Origin: Clostridiales bacterium
GTDB lineage: Bacteria; Bacillota; Clostridia; Christensenellales; Borkfalkiaceae
NCBI GenBank assembly: GCA_015069295.1
Contig: SVIW01000001.1
Span: 1 to 64,000, forward strand
DNA length: 64,000 bases
Direction of reading: 5' to 3'
A model generated the notes under the pieces. That model was not told the DNA's origin, did not search any database, and worked only from the letters and a program-made list of their open reading frames with translations. Shown here piece by piece: positions 218-24,815 of this stretch; within the stretch, counting starts at the first letter, position 1, and every line of letters starts with the position of its first letter. The translations under genes and the position numbers were made by a program.

Positions 218-2626
218 TCAATACCAAATCTTCTTTTCCGTTAAAGAGTTTCCGTCGTATACGTAGGTTTTCGCCTCGTATTTGCCGAAATTCAAAACGA
301 ACTGCTTGCCCTGCAGGGTAACCGTCGCCGTTTGATTTTCCGCGCCGTTATTGACGAAGCGCAGGGTATATTCGTTCTTTTCTTTATAGAACGACACGAG
401 CGAAACGGCTTTGTTGTCTACCGTCAAAACTTCACCGCCCTTTTCGCCGCTGCCGTGCGGGAAATGATTGATGGTATACGGAACAGAAACGAACTCTTGC
501 GCAAGGTTTTCCAATTCGCTCGTCTTATCGTAAGAGATGCGGAAACGGAAATTACGTTTCCCTTGCTCAATATACGGAATAAAAATATTGCGTTTGATAA
601 GCGGTTTCTTTCCAATCGGGTGCGCGCAATAGGCAGCCCCTCTCAGCAAAGTCGCATACAACGCGTCGCCGTCGTGCGAGAACCCGAACGTGCAATCGTT
701 ATACAGCGCAAACGCGTTGTTTCCGTCTTGAATGCCCGCAAAACGCTGCATAGATTTTTCTTTTCCGTCTTTTTCGTATTCGTCCACGCCAAAAGGTACT
801 TGCCCAATGAACTCGCCTTGCAGCGTCGTGGGGATTTTTACCTTTAAGGCTTTTTCTTTTTCATTCCAGAATGCGTTGATGATGACGTCTACGTTGGGGG
901 AATGTTTAAAGATTCGATAAGATACGCGCACGTAACTGCCGCCCGCCTCGAAGAAGCTTTCGACTTCGGTTAATACGTCGCCGTCCTCTACGATTTTGAC
1001 GTTTTCCATACCGCGGAAAACCCCTTTATCGCATTTGGAAAGGGTGAACGGAACGGGATTTTCTCCGATACGTTCTAATTCCCAACCCCAAGGGTCGGCG
1101 TTATCGTCGTACAGAACGGGCTCGAACGCGCCGCCCGAAAGCATTTCCTTTCCGTCTACGATATAGCTTTCCAAAAGCCCCGTCTTACGGCTGATACGGA
1201 CGGTTTTATATTCGTCCTTAAGGAGGATATCTCCATCGGGCTGTACGATTTCAGGCTGCTTGGGAGTAATTTCCACCGTTAAGTCCAAACGGGTAACGTC
1301 AAAAGCGGGCAATACGCAGCTTACCGCAATGCGTTTACGGCGGTCGTAGTTGATATTAGACAATTCCTTAATGCACTGCGAAGGCATCACCTTTCCGTCT
1401 TGCTTTACGGTAACCGTATATTGAATATCGTCTGTATCGATGGATGTGGGCATAAGATATTCCATCTCTACAACCGCTTTTCTATCGTAAGGCTGCTGAT
1501 TGAAAACGAAGAACGGGAACTCCCCTTCGCCCGCCTTTTTTTCGTTGCCGACGAGGGCGAAAAAGGCTTTGTTAAATTCTTTTTGTAACAATTCCAAAGC
1601 GTAATCGCCTTTTCTAAGCGAGCTCTTTTCTCCGTCCGAGGCGCAAGTACCCGAACCGACGTCGTGGAACTGGATACAAGCCAGCGCTTTTTCCGCTTCG
1701 GTAAACGCCGCTTGGTTTTTAACGTACAAGCCGCGCAATTCCGCAAGCGAGCACAGCTTTTCGGTGGCGAAGAGTTTATATTCGAGCTCAATATGCTTTT
1801 GCTTGATACTGCTCATCGAGGTATACGCGCCGACCAAACAAGGGTGCAACGATTTTTCCCAACGCGCAGTAGGGTTGATATCGGCAAAATAGGCTTCGGG
1901 GTTGCTGTGAACGATTTCCAGCGTGCCCTTTTGCTCTTCGATATACGCGGTGATTTCCTGCAAATCCTTTCTGGACGGATTGCCGCCGTGGTTACCTACC
2001 CCCCAAAGCGCAACGCCGATTTCGTCGTTTTCATAGTTTTTCGATTTGCGTTGAATATCGGCAAGCGAAGTACCGAACCCGCTGCAATAAATGGTTACGT
2101 CTTCCACACGGGAAGCCTTAACTTCGCTGCCGTCTTTGCCGACCCAAATAAATTCTTTGTTGGGCAGTTCCAGCATTTCGGGCATCGGACGGCAGAACAT
2201 ATAGCTGTCGTATCCGCATTTTTTCAAAATTTGTACAAGCCCTACCGTATGACCGAAGGAGTCGAAATTGATAGCCGTAGTAGGTCTTGCGTTGAATTTT
2301 TCCGCAAAGTATTCTCTGCCCAATTTTATCTGACGAACAAAAGCTTCGCCGGAGGGAATATTGCAATCGGGTTGAAGATACCATCCCCCCATAATCTTCC
2401 AGTTTCCTTGCGAAACCTGGTTAGAAATTTCTTGAAATAATTGCGGATCGTGTTCTTCGATAAATTCGTACAAAATCGCTTCGTTATGGCAGAAAACGTA
2501 GTCGAATTCTTTGCAAAATTCGGCTGCTTGCCAAAAGGTGGAGACGGAGATCGCCTCTCCTTCTTCCCAATCCCACATCCAAACGGGGTCGATATGAGAA
2601 TTGCAGATTAAATGTAATTTCTTCAT
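218..2626 (-). CDS. Alpha-mannosidase, glycoside hydrolase family 38
   Basis: Hydrolyses alpha-linked mannose with retention, probably from N-glycan fragments. The 802-residue length fits bacterial GH38 enzymes. The N-terminus carries the zinc-binding start H11-I-D13 and the segment INFDSFGHT (about 120-127), whose D122 is the expected catalytic nucleophile; the C-terminal half has the usual beta-sandwich character. No signal peptide is visible, so it should act in the cytosol on imported oligosaccharides. The start is supported by AAGGA upstream. It has its own consensus promoter (2660-2688) and terminator. A sugar-kinase-like gene lies upstream, which fits a catabolic locus for mannose or N-acetylhexosamine. 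The exact linkage cannot be told. Confidence 0.9.
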   Translation of the reverse strand: MKKLHLICNSHIDPVWMWDWEEGEAISVSTFWQAAEFCKEFDYVFCHNEAILYEFIEEHDPQLFQEISNQVSQGNWKIMGGWYLQPDCNIPSGEAFVRQIKLGREYFAEKFNARPTTAINFDSFGHTVGLVQILKKCGYDSYMFCRPMPEMLELPNKEFIWVGKDGSEVKASRVEDVTIYCSGFGTSLADIQRKSKNYENDEIGVALWGVGNHGGNPSRKDLQEITAYIEEQKGTLEIVHSNPEAYFADINPTARWEKSLHPCLVGAYTSMSSIKQKHIELEYKLFATEKLCSLAELRGLYVKNQAAFTEAEKALACIQFHDVGSGTCASDGEKSSLRKGDYALELLQKEFNKAFFALVGNEKKAGEGEFPFFVFNQQPYDRKAVVEMEYLMPTSIDTDDIQYTVTVKQDGKVMPSQCIKELSNINYDRRKRIAVSCVLPAFDVTRLDLTVEITPKQPEIVQPDGDILLKDEYKTVRISRKTGLLESYIVDGKEMLSGGAFEPVLYDDNADPWGWELERIGENPVPFTLSKCDKGVFRGMENVKIVEDGDVLTEVESFFEAGGSYVRVSYRIFKHSPNVDVIINAFWNEKEKALKVKIPTTLQGEFIGQVPFGVDEYEKDGKEKSMQRFAGIQDGNNAFALYNDCTFGFSHDGDALYATLLRGAAYCAHPIGKKPLIKRNIFIPYIEQGKRNFRFRISYDKTSELENLAQEFVSVPYTINHFPHGSGEKGGEVLTVDNKAVSLVSFYKEKNEYTLRFVNNGAENQTATVTLQGKQFVLNFGKYEAKTYVYDGNSLTEKKIWY

Positions 2627-2659
2627 AGCTAAAATCCTTAGAAATCAATCTTAATTTAA

Positions 2660-2688
2660 ATTATAACATAATTGATACTTTCTGTCAA
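2660..2688 (-). promoter_or_regulatory. Promoter of the alpha-mannosidase gene
   Basis: Minus strand TTGACA, 17-base spacer, TATAAT: a full match to the housekeeping sigma consensus, about 35 bases before the start codon. Confidence 0.85.
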
Positions 2689-2730
2689 TCATTCGAAAAG
2701 AAAAAACTGGTACAAGTGGTGACTCCGCTT

Positions 2731-2758
2731 AAAAAATTACCCCGTTTTCACGGGGTAA
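2731..2758 (-). terminator. Terminator of the kinase-like gene
   Basis: TTACCCCGT / ACGGGGTAA stem with a four-base loop, followed on the minus strand by a run of six T. It separates the kinase gene from the mannosidase promoter. Confidence 0.9.
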
Positions 2759-2767
2759 AGGTTAAGT

Positions 2768-3862
<1,095 letters not shown>

Positions 3863-3864
3863 TC

Positions 3865-3892
3865 ATTATACTACTCCTACGATAAAAAACAA
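3865..3892 (-). promoter_or_regulatory. Promoter of the kinase-like gene
   Basis: Minus strand TTGTTT, 16 bases, TATAAT, about 30 bases before the start. It is divergent from the regulator promoter at 3970-3998, with about 80 bases between the two for regulator binding. Confidence 0.6.
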
Positions 3893-3969
3893 TAGAAAAT
3901 ATTTCCTTGTTTTGTGGTATTCTTTCGTAAGATTTTTTATTGAAATATAGCAAAAGTATAAAGAAACGT

Positions 3970-3998
3970 TTTACAAAGACGGTTGGGTTTGTTATAAT
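3970..3998 (+). promoter_or_regulatory. Promoter of the AraC-type regulator gene, leaderless geometry
   Basis: TTTACA (3970-3975), 17 bases, TATAAT (3993-3998). A start seven bases after the -10 box falls on position 4005, the A of the start codon, so the mRNA would have no 5' leader. Confidence 0.75.
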
Positions 3999-4004
3999 AA
4001 AGAT

Positions 4005-4886
4005 ATGACGGAACAATTGAAAAAATTTTATATGCACAAAATCTCCAATCTTTTGAACGTGCAAAAGATAGTTACCATTCATTATCAGGCGTTAGAGAAA
4101 AACTACGTTTTCCCCGAAGAAAAACACGATTTTTGGGAAATCAATTACGCCGACAAGGAAAACGTATTCGTTGGGATAGACGGGAAAAAAGTCGAATTAA
4201 AACAGGGAGAAATTATATTTATCAAACCCAATCAACCGCATTTTGTCGAAAGCGGCGATAAAGAGCCGAATTTGTTTATTATTTCCTTTTCCTGCCGCTC
4301 CGAATCGATGAACTTTTTTGCCGACAAAAAATTTGCCGTACCTGAAAAGTATAGGTATTTACTGCAAAATATTATGTCGGAAGCGGAAAACACCTTTGAT
4401 TTGCCCGACTTTGACCCCCATCTTAGCGGTTTGAAATTATTGGAAAATCCAAACCTTGGCGGCGAGCAAATTATAAAAAACTCTTTGGAAGCTTTTTTGA
4501 TTTATCTTTTGCGGCACGCGCAAAAGCGCCCTTCCTCGCAAGAGTTTTTCGTTTCGAAAATCGCCGACTCGTCCGAACTTGAAGACGAAATCGTACGAAT
4601 TTTAAGTTCGAAGATATACGGGAAATTTAGTTTGGCGGATCTTAGCAACGAATTGCATTACGGGACGACAAGACTTTGTACTTTTTTCAAGAAAAAAACG
4701 GGGAAAAGTATCTATCAAACCTATTTGAAATTAAAAATCGACGAGGCAAAAAAACTGATACGGAAAAACAAATCGTTTGCGGAAATTACCGAGCTTTTGT
4801 GTTTTGATTCTCTTTCCACCTTTACTTTCGTGTTTAGGAAGTATTTGGGTATGACCCCCAGCGAATACAGAAACAGTATAAAATAA
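4005..4886 (+). CDS. AraC-family transcriptional regulator with cupin sensor
   Basis: Residues about 25-130 form an AraC-type cupin sensor (HDFWEINYADKENV, then GEIIFIKPNQPHFV), and the C-terminal ~100 residues contain the double helix-turn-helix ending in FTFVFRKYLGMTPSEYRNS, the AraC signature. It very likely binds a sugar or glycan breakdown product and controls the divergent kinase gene and perhaps the mannosidase. Start: ATG 4005 has no Shine-Dalgarno sequence and sits at the predicted transcription start; the next ATG (4032) also lacks one. The family assignment is firm; the ligand is unknown. Confidence 0.88.
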   Translation: MTEQLKKFYMHKISNLLNVQKIVTIHYQALEKNYVFPEEKHDFWEINYADKENVFVGIDGKKVELKQGEIIFIKPNQPHFVESGDKEPNLFIISFSCRSESMNFFADKKFAVPEKYRYLLQNIMSEAENTFDLPDFDPHLSGLKLLENPNLGGEQIIKNSLEAFLIYLLRHAQKRPSSQEFFVSKIADSSELEDEIVRILSSKIYGKFSLADLSNELHYGTTRLCTFFKKKTGKSIYQTYLKLKIDEAKKLIRKNKSFAEITELLCFDSLSTFTFVFRKYLGMTPSEYRNSIK

Positions 4887-4888
4887 CG

Positions 4889-4917
4889 AAGAAACGAACC
4901 GATTTGGTTCGTTTCTT
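4889..4917. terminator. Bidirectional terminator between convergent genes
   Basis: AAGAAACGAACC, five-base loop, GGTTCGTTTCTT. It lies between the AraC-type gene and the convergent ABC exporter gene and can serve both. Confidence 0.85.
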
Positions 4918-4922
4918 TCTGT

Positions 4923-6587
4923 TTATTCGGATATCGTATTTTGGTTTATCGTTAATACGCGGTTGGAAATTGCCAAAGCCGCGGGGCGGTGCGTTACGAT
5001 AAGGCAAGTTTTGTCTTGTAATTTTTTAATATTTTTCAAAAGATGGGTTTCCGTCTCGCTATCCAGCGCGCTGGTCGCTTCGTCAAGCAGTAAAATAGGA
5101 CGGTTAGACAAAATTGCCCTTGCCACCGCAAGGCGTTGTAGCTGCCCTTCCGACAGTCCGCCTCCTCGTTCCGTAAGCCGTGTATTAAGACCGTTTGGAA
5201 GGTCGAAAACAAAGTCGGCGCAAGCGATTTGCAGGGCGGATTTTATTTTTTCGTCGTCAATCGTTTCTCCGTTTTCGGCAAAGAATGTAAGGTTTTCGTA
5301 AATCGTACCCAAGAAGAGGAAATTGCCTTGGGGGACGTAGGCGAATAAGTTTCTGTGTTTTGCCTGCAACGCTACGCTTTCTTTTTCGTTTTCCAGTAAA
5401 ATTTCGCCGTCGGTAGGAGTATACAAGCCGAGCAGGAGCTTAAATAAAGTGCTCTTCCCCGTGCCCGAAGCGCCTGTAAGAGAAAGGATTTCGCCTTTGT
5501 TTATCGTTAGAGTAGTTTTTGAAAGAACCTCTTCCTCTTCGTAGGCAAAACAAAGATTTTTAAGAGAAATACGCTCAAAATTAAAGGGTTTAGGCGTATC
5601 CGTAAGATTTTCCGTGGGAATATCCTCGATTTCCGCCAACCGTTCGCCGCTGGCAATACGGGCGTAATAGGCGGGAATGACGGCGGAAAATCCCGAAAGC
5701 GGTTGCTGGAATTGCATCAACAACAAAATAACGGACAGCATTGCGCCGTAATCGGCGGCAACGGGGTTGTTTAAAATGGAAACGGCGCACCATACCACGG
5801 CAAGAATCAAACCCGAATTGCTAAGCAAGGCAAAGACGGCGTTGATGCCCGAACGCAAAAAGTTTCTATCCATACGCGCTTTGTAATACTCTTTTGCTAA
5901 TTCTGCCGATTTTTCCGTGCTTTGTTTTTCCGCACCGTAAGCCTTGACGGTCATTGAAGCGGAAATCCCCTCTTGCATAAACGCTCTGTGGATATCGTCA
6001 GCCGCCAAGAACGCCTTTTGGCGTTTTTTGATTTGACGACGGAAGAGCGCTGCCAATACGCCGAACGCGCCGCCGCATACGACGTAGACCGCCGTAAACA
6101 ACGGATTGATGGTCAACAGCAATACGATCGCGCCGATACATTGGATGAGCATAGAAGTCAGTACGGGCAACAGCCCTACCGTGTACGCCGCAATCTCTTG
6201 AACGTCCGAGGTTAAACGGTTGAGCAGTTCACCGCTGTGATAACGAGTAATCGTTGCGTAATCAGAGCGGAGAATTTTATTAAAAATCTTAACGCGGAGA
6301 TTGGTTACGATTTTCGAGCGTAATTTTTCCGTATAGAAACCGTCGAGCGTTTTAAAGAGGATTTTCAGTAAAATCAAAGACAGCAACACGGCGGAAAATA
6401 CCCAAAGCGTATTTGCTTTTCCGTCGGTTGCGCTGTTGATAACGTATTTTACAAGATAGGCAAACGCAAGAGAAAATACCGTCGAAAGGGAGAGAAACAA
6501 GGTCAACAGCAAAATGGCGCCTCGATACGGGCGCATTTCTTTTTTCAACCAAAGTTTTCCGTTTTTCATCGTTGCCGAGCCTTTCAT
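4923..6587 (-). CDS. ABC exporter, fused permease and ATPase
   Basis: A half-transporter of 554 residues: six predicted membrane helices in about 1-310, then an ATPase domain with Walker A GASGTGKST, signature LSEGQLQRLAVARA and Walker B ILLLDEATSALD. It works as a homodimer in the cytoplasmic membrane. There is no N-terminal C39 peptidase domain, so it does not itself trim a leader. Start 6587 has AGGAAG nine bases upstream; a second ATG at 6569 is possible. It is the last gene of a run (peptide, kinase, PqqD-like, peptidase, exporter) with gaps of a few bases, so the likely cargo is a product of that run. Lipid or drug export cannot be excluded. Confidence 0.85.
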   Translation of the reverse strand: MKGSATMKNGKLWLKKEMRPYRGAILLLTLFLSLSTVFSLAFAYLVKYVINSATDGKANTLWVFSAVLLSLILLKILFKTLDGFYTEKLRSKIVTNLRVKIFNKILRSDYATITRYHSGELLNRLTSDVQEIAAYTVGLLPVLTSMLIQCIGAIVLLLTINPLFTAVYVVCGGAFGVLAALFRRQIKKRQKAFLAADDIHRAFMQEGISASMTVKAYGAEKQSTEKSAELAKEYYKARMDRNFLRSGINAVFALLSNSGLILAVVWCAVSILNNPVAADYGAMLSVILLLMQFQQPLSGFSAVIPAYYARIASGERLAEIEDIPTENLTDTPKPFNFERISLKNLCFAYEEEEVLSKTTLTINKGEILSLTGASGTGKSTLFKLLLGLYTPTDGEILLENEKESVALQAKHRNLFAYVPQGNFLFLGTIYENLTFFAENGETIDDEKIKSALQIACADFVFDLPNGLNTRLTERGGGLSEGQLQRLAVARAILSNRPILLLDEATSALDSETETHLLKNIKKLQDKTCLIVTHRPAALAISNRVLTINQNTISE

Positions 6588-6593
6588 CAGTCG

Positions 6594-7052
6594 TTACTTC
6601 CTCTTAAAAAGATATAAAAATTTTTTGACTGCGTTTTTGCATTTGCCTTTTATCCGCACGAAAAAGCGGCGAGGTTTGTACCATTTTAAACGTCTTTTAA
6701 CGTAGCGGAGGTATTTTTTGTCCGTGCAGGTAACGTGCTTCCCTTTGCGGAAAAACTCGGTTAAAACGCCGATTACGCTATCCTCAGGGACGTTTTCGTC
6801 TGCATAGCAGTTATCTCCGCGGATAATATAACCCCTTTCCGTTTGCTTTAATACGCGGTGCAAAATATAAGCGTCCTCGCGTTTATAAAGCGCGACGTCT
6901 AAGGGCTGTAAACGCTCCGTTTTGGGACGGATAATAATGGTGTCCCGACGGTTTTTCAGCATAGGCAACATACTGACCCCGACGGTTGGACCCGCATAAT
7001 ATCCCTTTTCTGCAAGTACGTCCTCTATTTTTAGTCTTTCGTTCTGTTCCAT
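6594..7052 (-). CDS. S24/S26-like peptidase, Ser-His (Sec11/SipW) type, no membrane anchor
   Basis: Residues about 24-31 read VGVSMLPM, the signal-peptidase serine motif (S27). The later LHRV and RGDN segments resemble the ER-type (S26B) signal peptidase layout in which histidine replaces the lysine base. Unlike true signal peptidases there is no N-terminal membrane helix; instead the last ~35 residues are strongly basic and amphipathic (RRFFVRIKGKCKN...), which could bind membranes. I chose ATG 7052, just past the stop of the preceding gene, because the resulting N-terminus aligns with the domain; the few residues upstream look like read-through. In this cassette it is the natural candidate for cutting a leader peptide. 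Proteolytic activity is inferred. Confidence 0.65.
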   Translation of the reverse strand: MEQNERLKIEDVLAEKGYYAGPTVGVSMLPMLKNRRDTIIIRPKTERLQPLDVALYKREDAYILHRVLKQTERGYIIRGDNCYADENVPEDSVIGVLTEFFRKGKHVTCTDKKYLRYVKRRLKWYKPRRFFVRIKGKCKNAVKKFLYLFKRK

Positions 7053-7056
7053 ATAC

Positions 7057-7320
7057 TTATTCTGCAAAACGGTTTGCAAGCAAAACGTCAAAGAAACGCT
7101 GTACGTCTGCGGTTGCGCGCTTAAGTTCTACGTCGTATTCGTTGCACAGTGCCGCCGCGCCCTCTTCAAGAGTATGTTCTTCCGAGAAAAAACGCCATAA
7201 AAACGCGCCCGTTTCGTTTAAGTTTATCATACCGTGGAATTGTTTGCTCATTTCCCCGACGGGAACGACGACGTGTTCGCCGCCAACAACGCGGAGAACG
7301 AAACCTTTTTTGATTTTCAT
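7057..7320 (-). CDS. PqqD-like peptide-binding chaperone
   Basis: 87 residues with the PqqD pattern: FVLRVVGGEHVVVPVGE, then FHGMINLNETGAFLWRFF, then a helical C-terminal half with EYDVELKRATADVQRFFDVLL. PqqD-family proteins are small winged-helix domains (RREs) that hold the leader of a ribosomal peptide for modifying enzymes. Its place between an HprK-like kinase and a leader-peptidase candidate strongly suggests a RiPP-type pathway. A good ribosome site (AAGG) precedes the start. The partner peptide is not proved; the 48-residue peptide encoded at the head of this run is the obvious candidate. Confidence 0.8.
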   Translation of the reverse strand: MKIKKGFVLRVVGGEHVVVPVGEMSKQFHGMINLNETGAFLWRFFSEEHTLEEGAAALCNEYDVELKRATADVQRFFDVLLANRFAE

Positions 7321-7335
7321 ATTAGATTACCTTCT

Positions 7336-8052
7336 TTAATTTTCAGGATAAGGATTGCCCGTCAGAGCTTCGTAAGAGGTTTTGACCGCCTCTTTCGAGA
7401 TATTGCAACGAAGAAGATAAGCGGGCGTGGAAGAAATAAGCTTATCGGCAAGCTCTAACGTTTTTTCCACCGCGTTTTCTTCTTGCGGCAGCAAAATCTG
7501 CATAAACAAGCGAGAAGAAACTTCTGTAGGAGATAATTTTTTGATGGAATTTTCTTTGGCTTGTTCTAAAAAACAAAGTCCGCGCAAAGGCGCGCTCGTA
7601 TTACAGCCCCAACGTTCTTTCCCCTGCCAAGGCGTGCCGTGGACGATAAAGCCCTCTTTTTCGTATTGTAAAATCGGTTTATCGCCGTTGACGACGCGCG
7701 CTGCGGGAAACGCGTTTAACCAAAGTTTGGTATGGGTCGATTTTCCCGTGCCGCTTCTGCCTAAAAATGCGTAACCGTTTCCGTCCAGTTCGAGTACGGA
7801 ACAATGCAAAAGCATACGGTCAAACTCGGGAAGCTGACGACAAAGACTGCGGTATAGACAGATGTTTTCAATATACCCGTCCGAGAACTGCGGCGAAGCG
7901 TTTTTTTCTTCGTCAAATTCTTCTTTCGTAACGGCAGCGGTTACGTTTGCAGGAGAAAACTGGTCTGCCGCAAGATACTCGCGGCAAAACTTCGTCGTGT
8001 ATTCGTATTCGTTTTGTAAAAGAACACGCAGTCCTGCAATTTCGTAAATCAT
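7336..8052 (-). CDS. HprK/PEPCK-fold kinase-like protein of the peptide cassette
   Basis: A P-loop protein of 238 residues with Walker A GRSGTGKSTHT at about 103-113, followed by VVNGDKPIL and GTPWQGKERWGCN, a pattern seen in HPr-kinase-related proteins of RiPP and lasso-peptide clusters. In lasso clusters such kinases phosphorylate a serine of the precursor; that activity here is inference. It is distinct from the bona fide hprK of this window (23892-24815). I chose ATG 8052; a TTG at 8082 would extend it by ten residues into the preceding peptide gene. No strong Shine-Dalgarno sequence precedes either, so translation may be coupled to the peptide gene, whose stop is 11 bases away. Confidence 0.7.
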   Translation of the reverse strand: MIYEIAGLRVLLQNEYEYTTKFCREYLAADQFSPANVTAAVTKEEFDEEKNASPQFSDGYIENICLYRSLCRQLPEFDRMLLHCSVLELDGNGYAFLGRSGTGKSTHTKLWLNAFPAARVVNGDKPILQYEKEGFIVHGTPWQGKERWGCNTSAPLRGLCFLEQAKENSIKKLSPTEVSSRLFMQILLPQEENAVEKTLELADKLISSTPAYLLRCNISKEAVKTSYEALTGNPYPEN

Positions 8053-8063
8053 ATCCGTTGTGC

Positions 8064-8210
8064 TTAATAATTCCCCGTCCAACCATCGCCGCCGATAATT
8101 GAAGAATCTTTTTTATTCGTATCCTCCGCCCCCTCGTCTTTACAAGCGGTAAAACCGATACAAAGCGCAAGAGAAAGCACGCAAAGAGTCAAAGCTAAAA
8201 ATCTTTTCAT
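8064..8210 (-). CDS. 48-residue lipoprotein-like peptide, candidate RiPP precursor
   Basis: A short gene with a strong start: GAGGTG five bases before ATG 8210, ten bases after the cyclophilin stop. The protein begins MKRFLALTLCVLSLALC, continues to FTAC (C23, a lipobox) and ends DSSIIGGDGWTGNY. It can be read in two ways. As a lipoprotein, it would leave a 26-residue acidic mature peptide. As a RiPP precursor, the GG at 40-41 would mark a leader/core border with core DGWTGNY; serines 36-37 would be kinase targets. The genes that follow (HprK-like, PqqD-like, peptidase, exporter) favour the second reading, the signal sequence the first. I recognise no family. Confidence 0.6.
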   Translation of the reverse strand: MKRFLALTLCVLSLALCIGFTACKDEGAEDTNKKDSSIIGGDGWTGNY

Positions 8211-8220
8211 AATCACCTCG

Positions 8221-8739
8221 TTACGCCTTGACGGGTTGGGCGTATTCGACGCCGAACGTTTCCGCCGTTACGCTTTTCATTTTCTTTTCTTCGTAGGGAC
8301 GGTCGTACCAATCGGTTTTCGTGTTTGCGATTTCGTCTACCGTTTCCATACCCTCGATGACTTTGCCAAACGCCGCGTATTGCCCGTCGAGATAATCCGC
8401 GTCGTCGTGCATTACGAAAAATTGCGAGCCCGCAGAGTCAGGGTGCTGTGCACGCGCCATCGAAAGTACGCCGCGGACGTGCGCGATATCGTTTTGCTTA
8501 AATCCGTTAGAGGAAAATTCCCCTTTAATATGATATCCGGGTCCGCCCGTACCCTTTCCTTCGGGATCGCCGCCTTGGATCATAAATCCTGCGATAACGC
8601 GGTGGAAGATGACGCCGTTATAAAATCCCTTGTTTACCAAGGATAAAAAGTTATTGACGGTGTTAGGGGCTTTTTCGGGATAGAGTTCCGCTTTAAAGGT
8701 TTTACCGTCTTCCATTTCAAAAGTTACGATAGGGTTCAT
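8221..8739 (-). CDS. Peptidyl-prolyl cis-trans isomerase, cyclophilin type
   Basis: 172 residues with cyclophilin hallmarks: NTVNNFLSLVNKGFYNGVIFHRVI (catalytic R in FHRV), GFMIQGGDPEGKGTGGPGY, and SAGSQFFVMHDD. It speeds proline isomerisation during folding. No signal peptide, so cytosolic. AAGGAG lies upstream of the start. Its stop is ten bases before the 48-residue peptide gene, so it may be cotranscribed with the peptide cassette, although it is an ordinary housekeeping gene. Confidence 0.95.
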   Translation of the reverse strand: MNPIVTFEMEDGKTFKAELYPEKAPNTVNNFLSLVNKGFYNGVIFHRVIAGFMIQGGDPEGKGTGGPGYHIKGEFSSNGFKQNDIAHVRGVLSMARAQHPDSAGSQFFVMHDDADYLDGQYAAFGKVIEGMETVDEIANTKTDWYDRPYEEKKMKSVTAETFGVEYAQPVKA

Positions 8740-8808
8740 AGTTCTCTCTCCTTTTAAATTTTCCGTTATCCCGCAAATAGAGCAGGTTAAAAATAACGGG
8801 GTTGTCGA

Positions 8809-9264
8809 TTAGTCCTCGAATTTTTCCACTTTTACGTTGGCTTCGTTGAAAAGCTGTAAGGAAAATTCGTCGGGATAGCCGTGCTTATATACGACTCGCG
8901 TAATACCTGCGTTGATGATGATTTTCGCGCAGATCACGCAGGGCTGATGGGTACAATACAAAGTGCTGCCGCTGATATTGATGCCGTGTCTTGCCGCTTG
9001 GATAACGGCGTTTTGTTCGGCGTGAACGGCAAAGCAGAGCTCTTGACGGGTACCGCTGGGGATATTGAGTTTTCTACGCAAGCATTCCCCTTTTTCTTCG
9101 CAGCTTTTTACGCCCGCGGGTGCTCCGTTATAGCCCGTTGCCATCACTCGTTTGTCCTTGACGATTACCGCGCCGACGTGGCGGTTTTGTTGATAACAGC
9201 TAGACCAGCCCGCTACCGTTTCCGTCAATTCCATAAAACGTTTGTCCCATTTGTCCATCGACAT
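8809..9264 (-). CDS. dCMP deaminase (ComEB type)
   Basis: Zinc deaminase of 151 residues: HAEQNAV supplies the zinc histidine and catalytic glutamate, and PCVICAK supplies the zinc cysteines. It converts dCMP to dUMP for thymidylate synthesis. The extra CxxxxxC region (KSCEEKGECLRRK) fits the dCMP deaminase/ComEB branch rather than cytidine or tRNA deaminases. Start ATG 9264 has AAGGAGAA upstream; an ATG two codons later is also possible. Promoter at 9302-9330. Confidence 0.9.
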   Translation of the reverse strand: MSMDKWDKRFMELTETVAGWSSCYQQNRHVGAVIVKDKRVMATGYNGAPAGVKSCEEKGECLRRKLNIPSGTRQELCFAVHAEQNAVIQAARHGINISGSTLYCTHQPCVICAKIIINAGITRVVYKHGYPDEFSLQLFNEANVKVEKFED

Positions 9265-9301
9265 AAAAACAATTCTCCTTATAACACACTATTCTATCGT
9301 A

Positions 9302-9330
9302 ATTATATCATCTTTTTATGGAAAATGCAA
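9302..9330 (-). promoter_or_regulatory. Promoter of the dCMP deaminase gene
   Basis: Minus strand TTGCAT, 17 bases, TATAAT. It probably also drives the cyclophilin gene and perhaps the peptide cassette, since no terminator is visible between them. Confidence 0.7.
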
Positions 9331-9398
9331 TCTTTTATAGAAGATTTTACAAATATGTTTTTCCATAAATTTTTTGGAAGATTTTTCAATTTTTTTGT

Positions 9399-9426
9399 TT
9401 GAGATAGTGATAAAAGCGTTTATAAT
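9399..9426 (+). promoter_or_regulatory. Promoter of groESL
   Basis: TTGAGA, 16 bases, TATAAT. No CIRCE element (TTAGCACTC-N9-GAGTGCTAA) is present around it, so HrcA control is not supported. The leader carries a small GCCC/GGGC hairpin at 9447-9460. Confidence 0.7.
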
Positions 9427-9477
9427 ATATTCGTATAAAAAATATCGCCCGTATTTGGGCAAAATTTGGAGGATAGT

Positions 9478-9765
9478 ATGAATATTAAACCTTTGTTTGA
9501 CAAGGTAGTTGTCGAAAGCGTAACCGTAGAAGAGAAGACGAAAAGCGGTTTTTATCTCCCCTCTTCCGCACAGGAAAAACCCCAGACCTGTCAGGTTGTT
9601 GCCGTAGGTCCCGGCGGGATTATTGACGGGAAAGAAATCGTTATGCAGGTGAAGGTTGGCGATAAAGTGCTTTGCTCGAATTATGCAGGTTCGAATTTTA
9701 AAGTAGACGGGAAAGAATTTACGATTTTGAAACAAAGCGACATTCTTGCCGTTGTGGAAGACTGA
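9478..9765 (+). CDS. groES: Co-chaperonin GroES
   Basis: 95 residues with the GroES fold sequence: IKPLFDKVVVESVTVEEKTKSGFYLP, the mobile loop at about 18-32, and VKVGDKVLCSNYAGSNFKVDGKEFTILKQSDILAVV at the end. It forms the heptameric lid of the GroEL chamber in the cytosol. The start at 9478 is fixed by TTGGAGG five bases upstream; an earlier in-frame start would overlap that site. groEL follows after 24 bases in the same operon. Confidence 0.97.
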   Translation: MNIKPLFDKVVVESVTVEEKTKSGFYLPSSAQEKPQTCQVVAVGPGGIIDGKEIVMQVKVGDKVLCSNYAGSNFKVDGKEFTILKQSDILAVVED

Positions 9766-9768
9766 TAA

Positions 9769-11418
<1,650 letters not shown>

Positions 11419-11439
11419 TTCGCTGCACCTCCAAATAAA

Positions 11440-11472
11440 AAAAGTAGGACTGATTTCAGTCCTACTTTTTTT
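11440..11472. terminator. Bidirectional terminator between groEL and spo0A
   Basis: AGTAGGACTGA / TCAGTCCTACT stem with a two-base centre, flanked by A and T tracts. It serves both convergent genes; the spo0A stop lies within its T tract. Confidence 0.9.
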
Positions 11473-12229
11473 ATCCCATATTTTCCAAAATGAGTTTATC
11501 GGCAACCAGCGCAATAAATTCGCTATTGGTCGGTTTTTCGTTCCCTAAATAAATTCTCGCTCCAAAAATAGCGTTGATGGCGTCGATTCTGCCCCGATTC
11601 CACGCAACCTCAATAGCGTGGCGGATTGCCCGTTCGACTTTGCTTGCCGTGGTTTGGAATTTTTTAGCGATGGACGGATACAGCTCTTTCGTAACGCTAT
11701 TGATGACGTACGGGCGTTCAATGGTCATTTTAATCCCTTCGCGAAGATAGCCGTAGCCCTTGATGTGCGGCGGAATACCGATGGAAATAAAGATTTCGCT
11801 GATTTTCTCTTCTACGGTTACGGGCGCACGTTTTGCAACGGACGGCTCTTTAACGGCGGATTGGGTTTTTACCAATTCGCGAATACGCTCTAACGCCGTT
11901 TGTAAACTGAACGGCTTTACCAAATAATAGACGGCGCCTTCGCCCATCGCGCGTTCGATAAGAGTATCGGACGCAACCCCCGTTGCGACGATTTTTGCCT
12001 CCGCCCACGTCTTTTTCACCGTGCGAATAATACCGCAGCCATCCGTACCTTTTAAGAACATTCCAACGATAACAAGGTCGGGTTTTAATTTTAAAATTTC
12101 CTTTATCCCTTCGTCCCCGTCGTCCCCAGCGTACAACACGTGAAAGTCTTTGCTTTCGTCAAACGCCTCTTTCAATTGCGTAAGTACGGCACTGTTTGAT
12201 TCCAATAAAATAACCGAGTTTGTTTTCAT
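11471..12229 (-). CDS. spo0A: Spo0A sporulation regulator with degenerate receiver domain
   Basis: 252 residues. The DNA-binding half (about 145-250) is clearly Spo0A: TTASKVERAIRHAIEVAWNRGRIDAINAIFG. The receiver half is degenerate. By position with B. subtilis Spo0A, the phosphorylated D56 is G56 here (codon GGA, in LVIVGMFLKG), and the acidic pair D10-D11 is E10-S11; the switch threonine region and the lysine of LVKPF are kept. The protein therefore should not accept phosphate at the usual site. It may act without phosphorylation, bind another signal, or be one of two paralogues. The sporulation role is known for the family; the altered control is inference. Own promoter at 12283-12311. 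Confidence 0.92.
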   Translation of the reverse strand: MKTNSVILLESNSAVLTQLKEAFDESKDFHVLYAGDDGDEGIKEILKLKPDLVIVGMFLKGTDGCGIIRTVKKTWAEAKIVATGVASDTLIERAMGEGAVYYLVKPFSLQTALERIRELVKTQSAVKEPSVAKRAPVTVEEKISEIFISIGIPPHIKGYGYLREGIKMTIERPYVINSVTKELYPSIAKKFQTTASKVERAIRHAIEVAWNRGRIDAINAIFGARIYLGNEKPTNSEFIALVADKLILENMG

Positions 12230-12282
12230 AAAAACACTTCCTTTAAAAAAATTTTTTCTTCTTCGATTGAAGGAGTGCTCCT

Positions 12283-12311
12283 ATTATACTACATATTTTT
12301 ACCTTTGTAAA
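12283..12311 (-). promoter_or_regulatory. Promoter of spo0A
   Basis: Minus strand TTTACA, 17 bases, TATAAT. An AGGAG/CTCCT inverted repeat (12271-12282) overlaps the expected transcription start and could be an operator. Two near-matches to the 0A box (AGTCGAA 12372-12378 and TGTTGAA 12382-12388, plus strand) lie 60-80 bases upstream. Confidence 0.75.
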
Positions 12312-12391
12312 TAATATTGAACAATAAATTCGAATATTTATTGAAGAAAATTTAATTATTTTTCAATATTTAGTCGAAAAATGTTGAAAAT

Positions 12392-12434
12392 GGGAAAAAA
12401 TAAAAGACAACGCCCGTTTTTTGGGGTTGTCTTT
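12392..12434 (-). terminator. Terminator of the ABC-F gene
   Basis: Minus strand AAAGACAAC...GTTGTCTTT stem followed by TTTTATTTTTT. Confidence 0.85.
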
Positions 12435-12451
12435 CGTTCTTTTTCTACAAA

Positions 12452-14029
12452 TTAAACGTGTTTTTCCTCTACGTATTCGTCGTAGGTTACTTGTCTGTCG
12501 TAGGTTTTGCCGCCGTTGATTTCAATAATACGGTTTGCAACCGTGTTCATCAATTCTTGGTCGTGCGAGGTCAACAGCATACAGCCGCGATAGTTGCTAA
12601 GCCCGTTATTTAAAGCGGTAATCGATTCGAGGTCGAGGTGGTTGGTCGGTTCGTCGAAGATGAGGAAGTTGCTGCCCTCTAACATCATTTTTGCGAGCAT
12701 ACAACGAACTTTTTCGCCGCCCGAGAGGACTTTTGCCTGTTTTAAAGCCTCTTCGCCCGAAAAGAGCATTCTGCCGAGCCAGCCGCGGAGATATTCCTCG
12801 TAATGGTCGGAAGAATATTGCGACAGCCATTCGACGAGGTTAAAATCGCAGTTTTGGAAATATTCGTTATTATTTTGCGGAAAATAGGAAACGGAGATAG
12901 TCTTTCCCCATTTTACCGTCCCAGCGTCGGGTTGTTCTTTGCCCATCAAAATATCGTACAGCATCGTAAGCGTGGTGCTCTTGTCCGAAACGATACCGAT
13001 TTTTTCCCCTCTCTGCACGGTAAAGGAAAGGTCGTTGAAGTACCCTTCTTTCGTCAAGCCCTCTACCATCAAAATATCGTTGCCGATTTCTTTTTCAAAT
13101 TTGAAATCGATGTACGGATATTTACGCAAAGACGGTTTAAAGTCGTTGATCGTAAGTTTTTCAAGCTCTTTCTTTCTCGAAGTTGCCTGACGGGATTTGG
13201 AAGCGTTTGCCGCAAATCGAGCGATGAATTCTTGCAATTCTTTTGCGCGCTGCTCGGCTTTTTTGTTTTGTTCCTTTTGCTGACGAGCCAAAAGCTGGCT
13301 GGTTTGATACCAAAAATCGTAGTTGCCGACGTACATATTGATTTTACCAAAGTCAACGTCGCAGATATTGGTACATACTTTATTGAGGAAGTGGCGGTTA
13401 TGGGAAACGATAATAATGGTATTTTCAAAATCCATCAAATAGTTTTCCAGCCATCTTACCGTCTTAATATCCAAGTTGTTCGTAGGCTCGTCCAAAAGCA
13501 AGACGTCGGGGTCGCCGAACAATGCCTGCGCAAGCAGGACGCGGACCTTTTGCTTTGCATCCAAATCTGCCATTAAAGAATAATGCAAATCTTCGTGGAT
13601 ATCCAAAGCGTTTAACAGCTGCGCTGCTTGAAATTCGGCGTCGTAGCCGTTCATTTCCGCAAATTCGCTTTCCAAATCGGCGGCGCGGATACCGTCTTCT
13701 TCGGAAAAGTTGGGATTAGCGTATAACGCGTCTTTTTCGTCCATAACCTCGACAAGGCGTTTATACCCAAGCATAACCGTACGCAAAACGGTTTCGTTAT
13801 CGTACATATTTTGGTTTTGCTGCAAAACGGACATACGCTCGTTTTTATCCATAGAAACGTAGCCTTTTTGCGGTTCGATTTCACCCGAAAGCACCTTTAA
13901 AAAGGTGGATTTTCCCGCGCCGTTTGCGCCGATGATGCCGTAGCAGTTTCCTTTCGTGAATTTCAAATTTACGTCTTCGAACAGTTTTTTGCTGCCGTAT
14001 TGCAGGGAAACTCCGGTAACTTGTAACAT
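12452..14029 (-). CDS. ABC-F family ATPase (YkpA/YbiT type)
   Basis: Two ATPase domains in 525 residues without membrane segments: Walker A GANGAGKST near 38 and a weaker second P-loop region (GEKIGIVSDKSTTL), each followed by a signature (second: LSGGEKVRCMLAKMML) and Walker B (VLLLDEPTNNLD; NFLIFDEPTNHLD). A charged linker rich in K, Q and E sits between. The second P-loop reads SDKSTT instead of the usual GxxGxGKST, which is odd for a nucleotide site. ABC-F proteins bind the ribosomal E site and tune translation. Start 14029 is fixed by GAGGTG upstream. Confidence 0.88.
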   Translation of the reverse strand: MLQVTGVSLQYGSKKLFEDVNLKFTKGNCYGIIGANGAGKSTFLKVLSGEIEPQKGYVSMDKNERMSVLQQNQNMYDNETVLRTVMLGYKRLVEVMDEKDALYANPNFSEEDGIRAADLESEFAEMNGYDAEFQAAQLLNALDIHEDLHYSLMADLDAKQKVRVLLAQALFGDPDVLLLDEPTNNLDIKTVRWLENYLMDFENTIIIVSHNRHFLNKVCTNICDVDFGKINMYVGNYDFWYQTSQLLARQQKEQNKKAEQRAKELQEFIARFAANASKSRQATSRKKELEKLTINDFKPSLRKYPYIDFKFEKEIGNDILMVEGLTKEGYFNDLSFTVQRGEKIGIVSDKSTTLTMLYDILMGKEQPDAGTVKWGKTISVSYFPQNNNEYFQNCDFNLVEWLSQYSSDHYEEYLRGWLGRMLFSGEEALKQAKVLSGGEKVRCMLAKMMLEGSNFLIFDEPTNHLDLESITALNNGLSNYRGCMLLTSHDQELMNTVANRIIEINGGKTYDRQVTYDEYVEEKHV

Positions 14030-14117
14030 TTTACACCTCAAATTGTTTTTTATTTGTAAATTATACCATATAAAATAATTTTAAGCAATCGTTTGCAAGG
14101 ACATTTTGTAAAACGCA

Positions 14118-23891: not shown

Positions 23892-24815
23892 TTATCTTCC
23901 TATACTGCGGGTAATCAATTCTTCCGAAGCGTCGTAACCCATACTCTTCAAACGGAAGTTACGGGCGGCAACTTCGATGATAATGGCAAGATTTCGTCCG
24001 GGACTGACGGGAATGGTCAGTTTGGGAATTTTGATGCCGAAATAACTCGTGGACGACATTTCGTCGCCGATGCGGTCGTATTCTTTGCCCTGCTGCCAAT
24101 TTTCCAGCTGAATAATAAGCTGTATCTTTTTCTCGTCCAAAACCGAGCCTGAGCCGTACATACTTTTGACGTTGATAATCCCGATCCCGCGAAGTTCCAT
24201 AAAATAGCGGATAATATCGGGCGCGGTGCCGTATAACTCGTTGGCAATTTCTTTGATTATAACGTTGTCGTCGGCAATCAAACGGTGTCCGCGTTTAATC
24301 AGCTCCATTGCCGTTTCGCTTTTTCCTACGCCGCTTTTGCCCGTCAGTAAAATTCCTACGCCGAAAACCTCCATCAATACGCCGTGTTCGGTCATCGACG
24401 GCGCTAAAAGACGGTTGAGATAGATGTATAAATCGCTCATTAAGTCGGTGGTAACGCGCGGAGAACGGAAAAGCGGGCAAGAATAGCTTTTCGCCGTTTC
24501 GACAAGTTCGGGTAAAGCGGGCAAATCGCGGCTTAAAATCAGGCAAGGCAATTCCCCGTGCGAAAATAAAGAACAGAGTTTTTCTTTGCGCTCCGTCGAA
24601 GGGAAGGTGCGCAAATACTCGTATTCGGCAAGTCCGATGACGATGATGCGGTGCGGGTCGAAATAGTTGAAAAACCCGCCTGCAAGCTGTAATCCCGGGC
24701 GTTCGACGCTCATACTCGATAAGGTAACAACCCCTCTGCCCGTGTAGATAATTTCTAAATTGAGGTCGGATGCAAATTTATCCAACATAACGCTTTGAGT
24801 TACTTGCGCGCTCAT
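23892..24815 (-). CDS. hprK: HPr kinase/phosphorylase
   Basis: 307 residues. Walker A TGKSGVGKSETAMELIKRGH near 155 and the signature MELRGIGIINVKSMYGSGSV match true HprK. It phosphorylates Ser46 of HPr in answer to glycolytic state, controlling carbon catabolite repression. The start overlaps the upstream gene stop (ATGA), with GGAGGAAG in front. Genome neighbourhood with uvrC fits Clostridia. Confidence 0.95.
   Translation of the reverse strand: MSAQVTQSVMLDKFASDLNLEIIYTGRGVVTLSSMSVERPGLQLAGGFFNYFDPHRIIVIGLAEYEYLRTFPSTERKEKLCSLFSHGELPCLILSRDLPALPELVETAKSYSCPLFRSPRVTTDLMSDLYIYLNRLLAPSMTEHGVLMEVFGVGILLTGKSGVGKSETAMELIKRGHRLIADDNVIIKEIANELYGTAPDIIRYFMELRGIGIINVKSMYGSGSVLDEKKIQLIIQLENWQQGKEYDRIGDEMSSTSYFGIKIPKLTIPVSPGRNLAIIIEVAARNFRLKSMGYDASEELITRSIGR

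Follow-up and report, generated by a model that had tools for sequence, protein, structure and literature searches.

A window of 64,000 nucleotides from a Clostridiales bacterium of the Borkfalkiaceae (assembly GCA_015069295.1, contig SVIW01000001.1) carries five nearly touching open reading frames (ORFs) on the minus strand at 4923-8210, encoding a 48-residue peptide, an HprK-like P-loop kinase, a PqqD-like peptide-binding domain, an S26B-like peptidase and an ABC exporter. ORFs found upstream of the kinase gene in related genomes differ in their bodies (signal-peptide and transmembrane types) and share the tail W-[T/S]-x-N-Y-stop, with which the 48-residue peptide also ends. We propose, with a probability of roughly 0.47, that this cassette is a maturation unit of the type known from ribosomally synthesized and post-translationally modified peptides (RiPPs), and that it recognises the C-terminal tag on several exported proteins. 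The proposal starts from what is observed: a tag that is over-represented at ORF ends, adjoins the kinase gene in some loci and tends to occur in the same genomes, and a kinase with a predicted HPrK/PEPCK fold; beyond that point we infer. The link between tag and cassette is well supported.

The C-terminal tag and its link to the kinase gene

Two sets of genomes were searched: 57 genomes of the genus and 151 genomes of the family (18 genera). The pattern W-T-x-N-Y-stop yields 38 sites in the genus sample, where its reversed control yields 3; in the family sample the figures are 34 and 10. True stops follow 36 of the 38 genus sites. The 35 sites that were read all end in-frame ORFs of at least 35 residues (two sites without a stop were set aside, as was one, G172:C17, that was not read). 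For the family, 27 of the 34 sites fall in genera g1, g2 and g5; all 25 that were read proved to be true tags, and the two unread sites lie in genomes that were already positive (G059 and G048). The seven sites elsewhere in the family are chance frames of at most 25 residues, one non-stop and one doubtful 51-residue ORF in G109 (g6, kinase-positive), which was scored as chance. The form G-W-T-[G/D/E]-N-Y-stop occurs at five sites in the 151 genomes; three lie before the kinase gene and two on other contigs, where by eye the tagged products are a leucine-rich-repeat (LRR)-like protein and a small single-pass protein.

Across all fetched loci we count 52 distinct ORFs of 30 or more residues that end in the tag, at least one of which (L198) is probably due to chance; seven shorter frames were dropped. 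A crude regular expression classes 32 of them as lipoprotein-like and 6 as transmembrane or signal-peptide proteins; the N-terminus is open in 8, and the other 6 fall in no class. By eye many resemble InlB-repeat proteins, and some products exceed 600 residues and are encoded away from the cassette. Serine replaces threonine at position -4 in four tag ORFs; that W, N and Y (and mostly T) are constant follows from the search pattern itself. Searches for known families with ten tag peptides or leader-type peptides (described below) gave no match above cut-off. A gene that by eye resembles a ZIP transporter precedes a tag-ended lipoprotein gene in five genomes (L232, L233, L237, L241 and L244).

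Adjacency was counted in the 30 cassettes of the genus for which 150 or more bases of upstream sequence are available. In seven of them a tag ORF ends 0 to 16 bases before the kinase start, and G172 has two in tandem. Approximately 0.004 such cases would be expected, a rough estimate that ignores the kinship of the genomes. The original prediction guessed that the cassette can be adjoined by a short, variable gene whose C-terminus is conserved, and this is borne out. A tagged peptide is nonetheless not a fixed neighbour: 23 of the 30 loci have no tag-ended ORF directly upstream, which is half of what that prediction had named as its refutation. In one of these 23 loci (L067 in G147) the peptide before the kinase ends in EFPEEWN, where the counterpart in G159 has EFPEDEWTNNY; the full tag is missing there.

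Tag and kinase also occur together across the family: true tags are present in 19 of 64 kinase-positive genomes against 2 of 87 kinase-negative ones (Fisher p = 1.3e-6). Kinase-positive genomes with tags come from g1 (7/15), g2 (7/12) and g5 (5/5), against 0/32 in other genera. The two tagged kinase-negative assemblies also lack the peptidyl-prolyl isomerase and GroEL genes that flank the cassette. A similar pattern is seen for nine genus genomes with a tag and without PqqD: none has an isomerase match, and GroEL is not found in seven and partial in two. Because these flanking genes are missing as well, the cassette region has probably been lost from the nine assemblies, and we do not count them as counterexamples. 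G071 (94% complete) has the isomerase gene followed by other genes, with no kinase, PqqD or tag found. Kinase, PqqD and tag were not found in G137 either, where the contig ends too early to show absence, and G164 and G180, in which PqqD, tag, isomerase and GroEL are all unmatched, are uninformative either way.

Leader-type peptides, other tails and competing explanations

A scan of named genomes gave at least 595 stretches matching our pattern, and the best 80 were taken as wider loci. Leader-type peptides (Y..P..E...F...DVITxS) are encoded in 12 of these 80 loci (830 kb), and in 11 of the 12 the peptide gene precedes the kinase gene in the same orientation. The leader pattern has one match in 291 kb of other loci, and this match is itself tagged. 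Two peptides of the genus, in L175 and L166, have a leader-like N-terminus and the tag and carry no signal peptide; they are the only two such seen and, as they combine leader and tag, provide the strongest hint that the cassette encounters the tail inside the cytosol.

In some of the wider loci the kinase is preceded by small lipoproteins whose tails differ. In L274, outside the genus and with a kinase that is 42% identical, a lipoprotein ending in EWSPNY is encoded just before the kinase. The leader peptide of L293 ends in GELPFVPAE and the next lipoprotein (5434-5940) in IELPFVPAF, and in L300 a leader peptide and its exported neighbour end in ITMPEI and IELPEI. These shared tails suggest that tails are lineage-specific. 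In the eight genomes searched for ELPFVP-type tails, three convincing ORFs have the motif at most 5 residues from the end. Two are in G189 and one in G190, each of them next to the kinase; the remaining matches near an end are short frames (L348, L350, L354) and a membrane protein (L344). Large secreted-looking proteins stand directly before a leader-type peptide near the kinase in L280, L290 and L309, and the one in L290 has InlB-type repeats according to Pfam.

Under the tag-recognition proposal the 48-residue lipopeptide would be one of several substrates, together with exported lipoproteins, single-pass proteins and rare leader-type peptides encoded elsewhere. The PqqD-like protein would present the tail before export, and the kinase might, by analogy with lasso-peptide kinases, phosphorylate Thr or Ser at -4 or Tyr at -1, likewise before export. 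Short or leader-type members would be trimmed by the S26-like peptidase and leave the cell through the ABC exporter. These two look accessory, because they are not found beside the kinase in g5, where tags persist.

A number of observations weigh against this proposal. Most tagged proteins have signal peptides, so that the tail would be cytosolic only before export. No true WTxNY site is found in 18 of the 33 PqqD-positive genus genomes (G175 has WSDNY), no convincing tag is present in any of the 32 kinase-positive genomes of g4, g6, g8, g14, g15 and g16, and in three g5 loci (L094, L095, L097) only HprK and PqqD are matched, with no S26 or ABC match beside the kinase. The genomes are related, so the counts are not independent and are uncorrected for kinship. 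Searching eight genomes for [D/E]-[L/F]-P-F-[V/I]-P gave 13 sites against 12 for the control; given this lack of excess, genome-wide tags are established for W[T/S]xNY alone. ELPFVPA tails have no hydroxyl residue, and phosphorylation of the tail is therefore not a general rule: either the reaction varies by lineage or the tail serves as a recognition element only. When any residue was allowed at position -4, a search of 16 genomes found 25 sites, fewer than the 40 of the reversed control. This search returned eight plausible tag ORFs, all with T or S, of which six were WT tags already known and two, both with Ser, were new. With no excess and only these two additions, there is little to argue that a hydroxyl is required.

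A wider reading, which we hold tentatively, is that of a new class of C-terminal processing system in which a RiPP-derived kinase and its recognition protein would mark the last residues of many unrelated exported proteins. It would use tails that are lineage-specific (W[T/S]xNY; ELPFVPA-like) and are carried by leader-type peptides and full-size lipoproteins alike. It is rather unlikely that the tag is instead a sorting, anchoring or turnover signal for other machinery and that the cassette merely shares its pathway, for example as the maker of a ligand or peptide that this surface system uses. The mostly lipoprotein-like nature of tagged proteins, which places the tail outside, would fit such a role, as would the apparent lack (by eye) of an export signal in both kinase and PqqD-like protein and the 18 of 33 cassette genomes without a WT tag. 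On the other hand, the tag adjoins the kinase, and the tagged leader-type peptides fit handling in the cytosol.

The original prediction had a single dedicated RiPP precursor in mind, which is too narrow, as the tag also ends other proteins far from the cassette. We consider it unlikely that the 48-residue peptide or a leader-type peptide is the sole substrate of a small RiPP system, which would phosphorylate it, trim it with the S26-like peptidase and export it, with the tag on other proteins serving something else. The gene types do fit RiPP clusters, and leader-type peptides lie in 12 of the 80 wider loci, mostly upstream of the kinase; however, a tag-ended ORF adjoins just 7 of the 30 genus cassettes, the 48-residue peptide has a lipoprotein-type signal rather than that leader, and large proteins end in the same tail. 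It also seems improbable that the lipoproteins next to the cassette imitate the end of an exported peptide and act as immunity or decoy proteins. The pairs in L293 and L300, where leader peptide and exported neighbour have the same last residues, are what this would predict, whereas many different proteins are tagged, some of them longer than 600 residues and not encoded next to the cassette, and tagged leader-type peptides number only two. If the tag is indeed the target of the cassette, RiPP-type enzymes would act on whole exported proteins, possibly a new way of marking proteins that leave the cell, and the tag would give a direct route to find and test substrates.

Genes of the cassette and relation to known systems

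The features of the window are listed in Table 1. All five genes of the original prediction are real and correctly placed, and the identities it gave to the kinase, PqqD, peptidase and exporter were right.

Table 1. Features of the cassette and its upstream flank in the window
Feature	Position	Strand	Remarks
ABC exporter, membrane and ATPase domains	4923..6587	-	PF00664 E 6.7e-33, PF00005 E 4e-28
S26B-like peptidase, 152 residues	6594..7052	-	TIGR02228 (sigpep_I_arch) E 5.6e-7, below cut-off
PqqD-like peptide-binding domain, 87 residues	7057..7320	-	PF05402 E 1.7e-16, cut-off passed
HprK-like P-loop kinase, 238 residues	7336..8052	-	
48-residue peptide	8064..8210	-	lipoprotein-type signal peptide; end GDGWTGNY; GAGGTG precedes ATG
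C-terminal tag W-T-G-N-Y	8067..8081	-	abuts stop codon; matched by tag-pattern search
Peptidyl-prolyl isomerase gene	8221..8739	-	just upstream of peptide gene; flank in 10/14 genus loci

The signal peptide of the 48-residue product (..GFTAC, by eye) had previously been missed. We considered this peptide as a chance ORF and dismissed the possibility. Its homology search gave many weak matches, by eye mainly to signal peptides, and was useless for finding relatives, whereas the pattern of the C-terminus served for this. A gap of 10 bases separates the isomerase gene from the peptide start; the isomerase is probably outside the function of the cassette.

The structure model of the kinase has an HPrK/PEPCK fold, with the P-loop lysine and catalytic aspartate in place. 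By fold it is thus predicted to be an HprK-like P-loop kinase, with putative activity on peptide hydroxyls. A canonical HPr kinase was rejected as its identity, given a profile match of 90% over 59 columns and a separate gene which by eye encodes the canonical HPr kinase/phosphorylase (23892-24815, minus strand). Sequence searches of the PDB with a single kinase or peptidase sequence gave no match, and a kinase profile retrieved mostly ABC proteins via the P-loop region. For the S26-like peptidase, Ser27, His65 and Asp80 are invariant in 32 sequences, as is Gly79. We take Ser27 and His65 to be catalytic, so that the serine and histidine expected of an S26B enzyme are present, together with the S26 boxes. 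Its score of 29.6 bits is below the 51.85 required by the NCBIfam model, the closest chains that a profile search retrieves include signal peptidase I and SEC11 (E 0.014-0.13), and by eye no transmembrane segment was seen. The Pfam matches of the ABC exporter include no peptidase domain.

Lasso-peptide kinases phosphorylate a C-terminal serine, and those of the paeninodin type, with PqqD-like B1, resemble the present system in pairing an HprK-like kinase with a PqqD-like partner. The cassette differs from them in having no cyclase alongside, in tails that end in tyrosine and in candidate substrates that include large exported proteins. Like a lasso cluster it contains a PqqD-like protein (matched by lasso PqqD models only below cut-off), and no asparagine-synthetase-like cyclase was seen. 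The earlier claim that no cyclase lies nearby stood up: among the window ORFs at 218-14041, checked by eye and not genome-wide, no cyclase, radical SAM, YcaO or LanM gene was recognised.

SynChlorMet systems are comparable in that the ScmC model recognises, at E 0.001, 38 of the 46 homologues of the kinase, and the PqqD-like protein weakly matches ScmD. The window proteins are however far below cut-off (30.4 against 125 bits for the kinase with the ScmC model TIGR04249), and there is no recurring radical SAM partner at the window locus or across the 80 wider loci. HprK-related kinases A and B (TIGR04352 and TIGR04355) are families that pair with a PqqD relative; 7 and 2 of the 46 homologues match them, whereas the window kinase itself has no match at E 0.001. 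The C-terminal sorting systems LPXTG/sortase and PEP-CTERM share a short end tag on unrelated exported proteins and, as we suppose here, a dedicated enzyme cassette. In contrast to these, no hydrophobic segment or basic tail follows the present motif, which by design of the search pattern abuts the stop codon and so gives no LPXTG-type signal, and the enzymes are a kinase and PqqD rather than a transpeptidase. A search of titles and abstract openings in the open-access literature returned no account of the tag or of a cyclase-less HprK/PqqD cassette, and no assigned role for such cassettes.

Distribution of the cassette

A PqqD homologue is present in 33 of the 57 genus genomes, and the HprK-like kinase in 64 of the 151 family genomes (9 of 18 genera). 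The 33 genomes provide 32 genus loci (G156, a fragment, was left out), all 32 of which have HprK, PqqD, S26 and ABC. G102 has only a fragment of the kinase, and in G060 (L081, 4073-4766) its gene is divided between two frames; G060 nevertheless keeps a tagged LRR-like protein, and a sequencing error is possible there. The pairing of PqqD with the kinase thus holds throughout the genus loci but not in g2, where 7 of 12 loci have no PqqD match in the cassette; six of these genomes were tested and five have PqqD elsewhere. Among the seven tag-bearing g2 genomes, five have PqqD elsewhere, G107 has it in the cassette, and in G087 no PqqD was found.

Such HprK-like genes, often with PqqD and S26-like genes and without a recognised cyclase, are widespread in gut Clostridia: of the listed stretches among the at least 595 in the named-genome scan, 586 encode kinase relatives. 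The best 80 loci contain PqqD-type ORFs in 37 cases, ABC ORFs in 27 and S26-type ORFs in 46, the last cluster also containing nucleotidyltransferases. Motif scans covered the 503 ORFs of at least 150 residues in these loci, with proteins named by eye. CxxxCxxC gave seven matches, three of them radical-SAM-like (two PflA-like, one larger). The lasso cyclase motif, searched in the 80 loci and not genome-wide, gave one AsnB-type match, which is a ThiI-like protein. L309 holds a 140-residue asparagine-synthetase-like ORF, below the minimum length of the scan. By eye, with no B2 model run there, no cluster of the B2-transglutaminase type was recognised in the 80 loci. Rumen lasso clusters described in PMC7533575 include combinations of HPr kinase, PqqD and nucleotidyltransferase. 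Named carriers of the present cassette include Blautia schinkii and Ruminococcus flavefaciens Y1, and in R. flavefaciens Y1 an NTP_transf_5 nucleotidyltransferase comes after the cassette.

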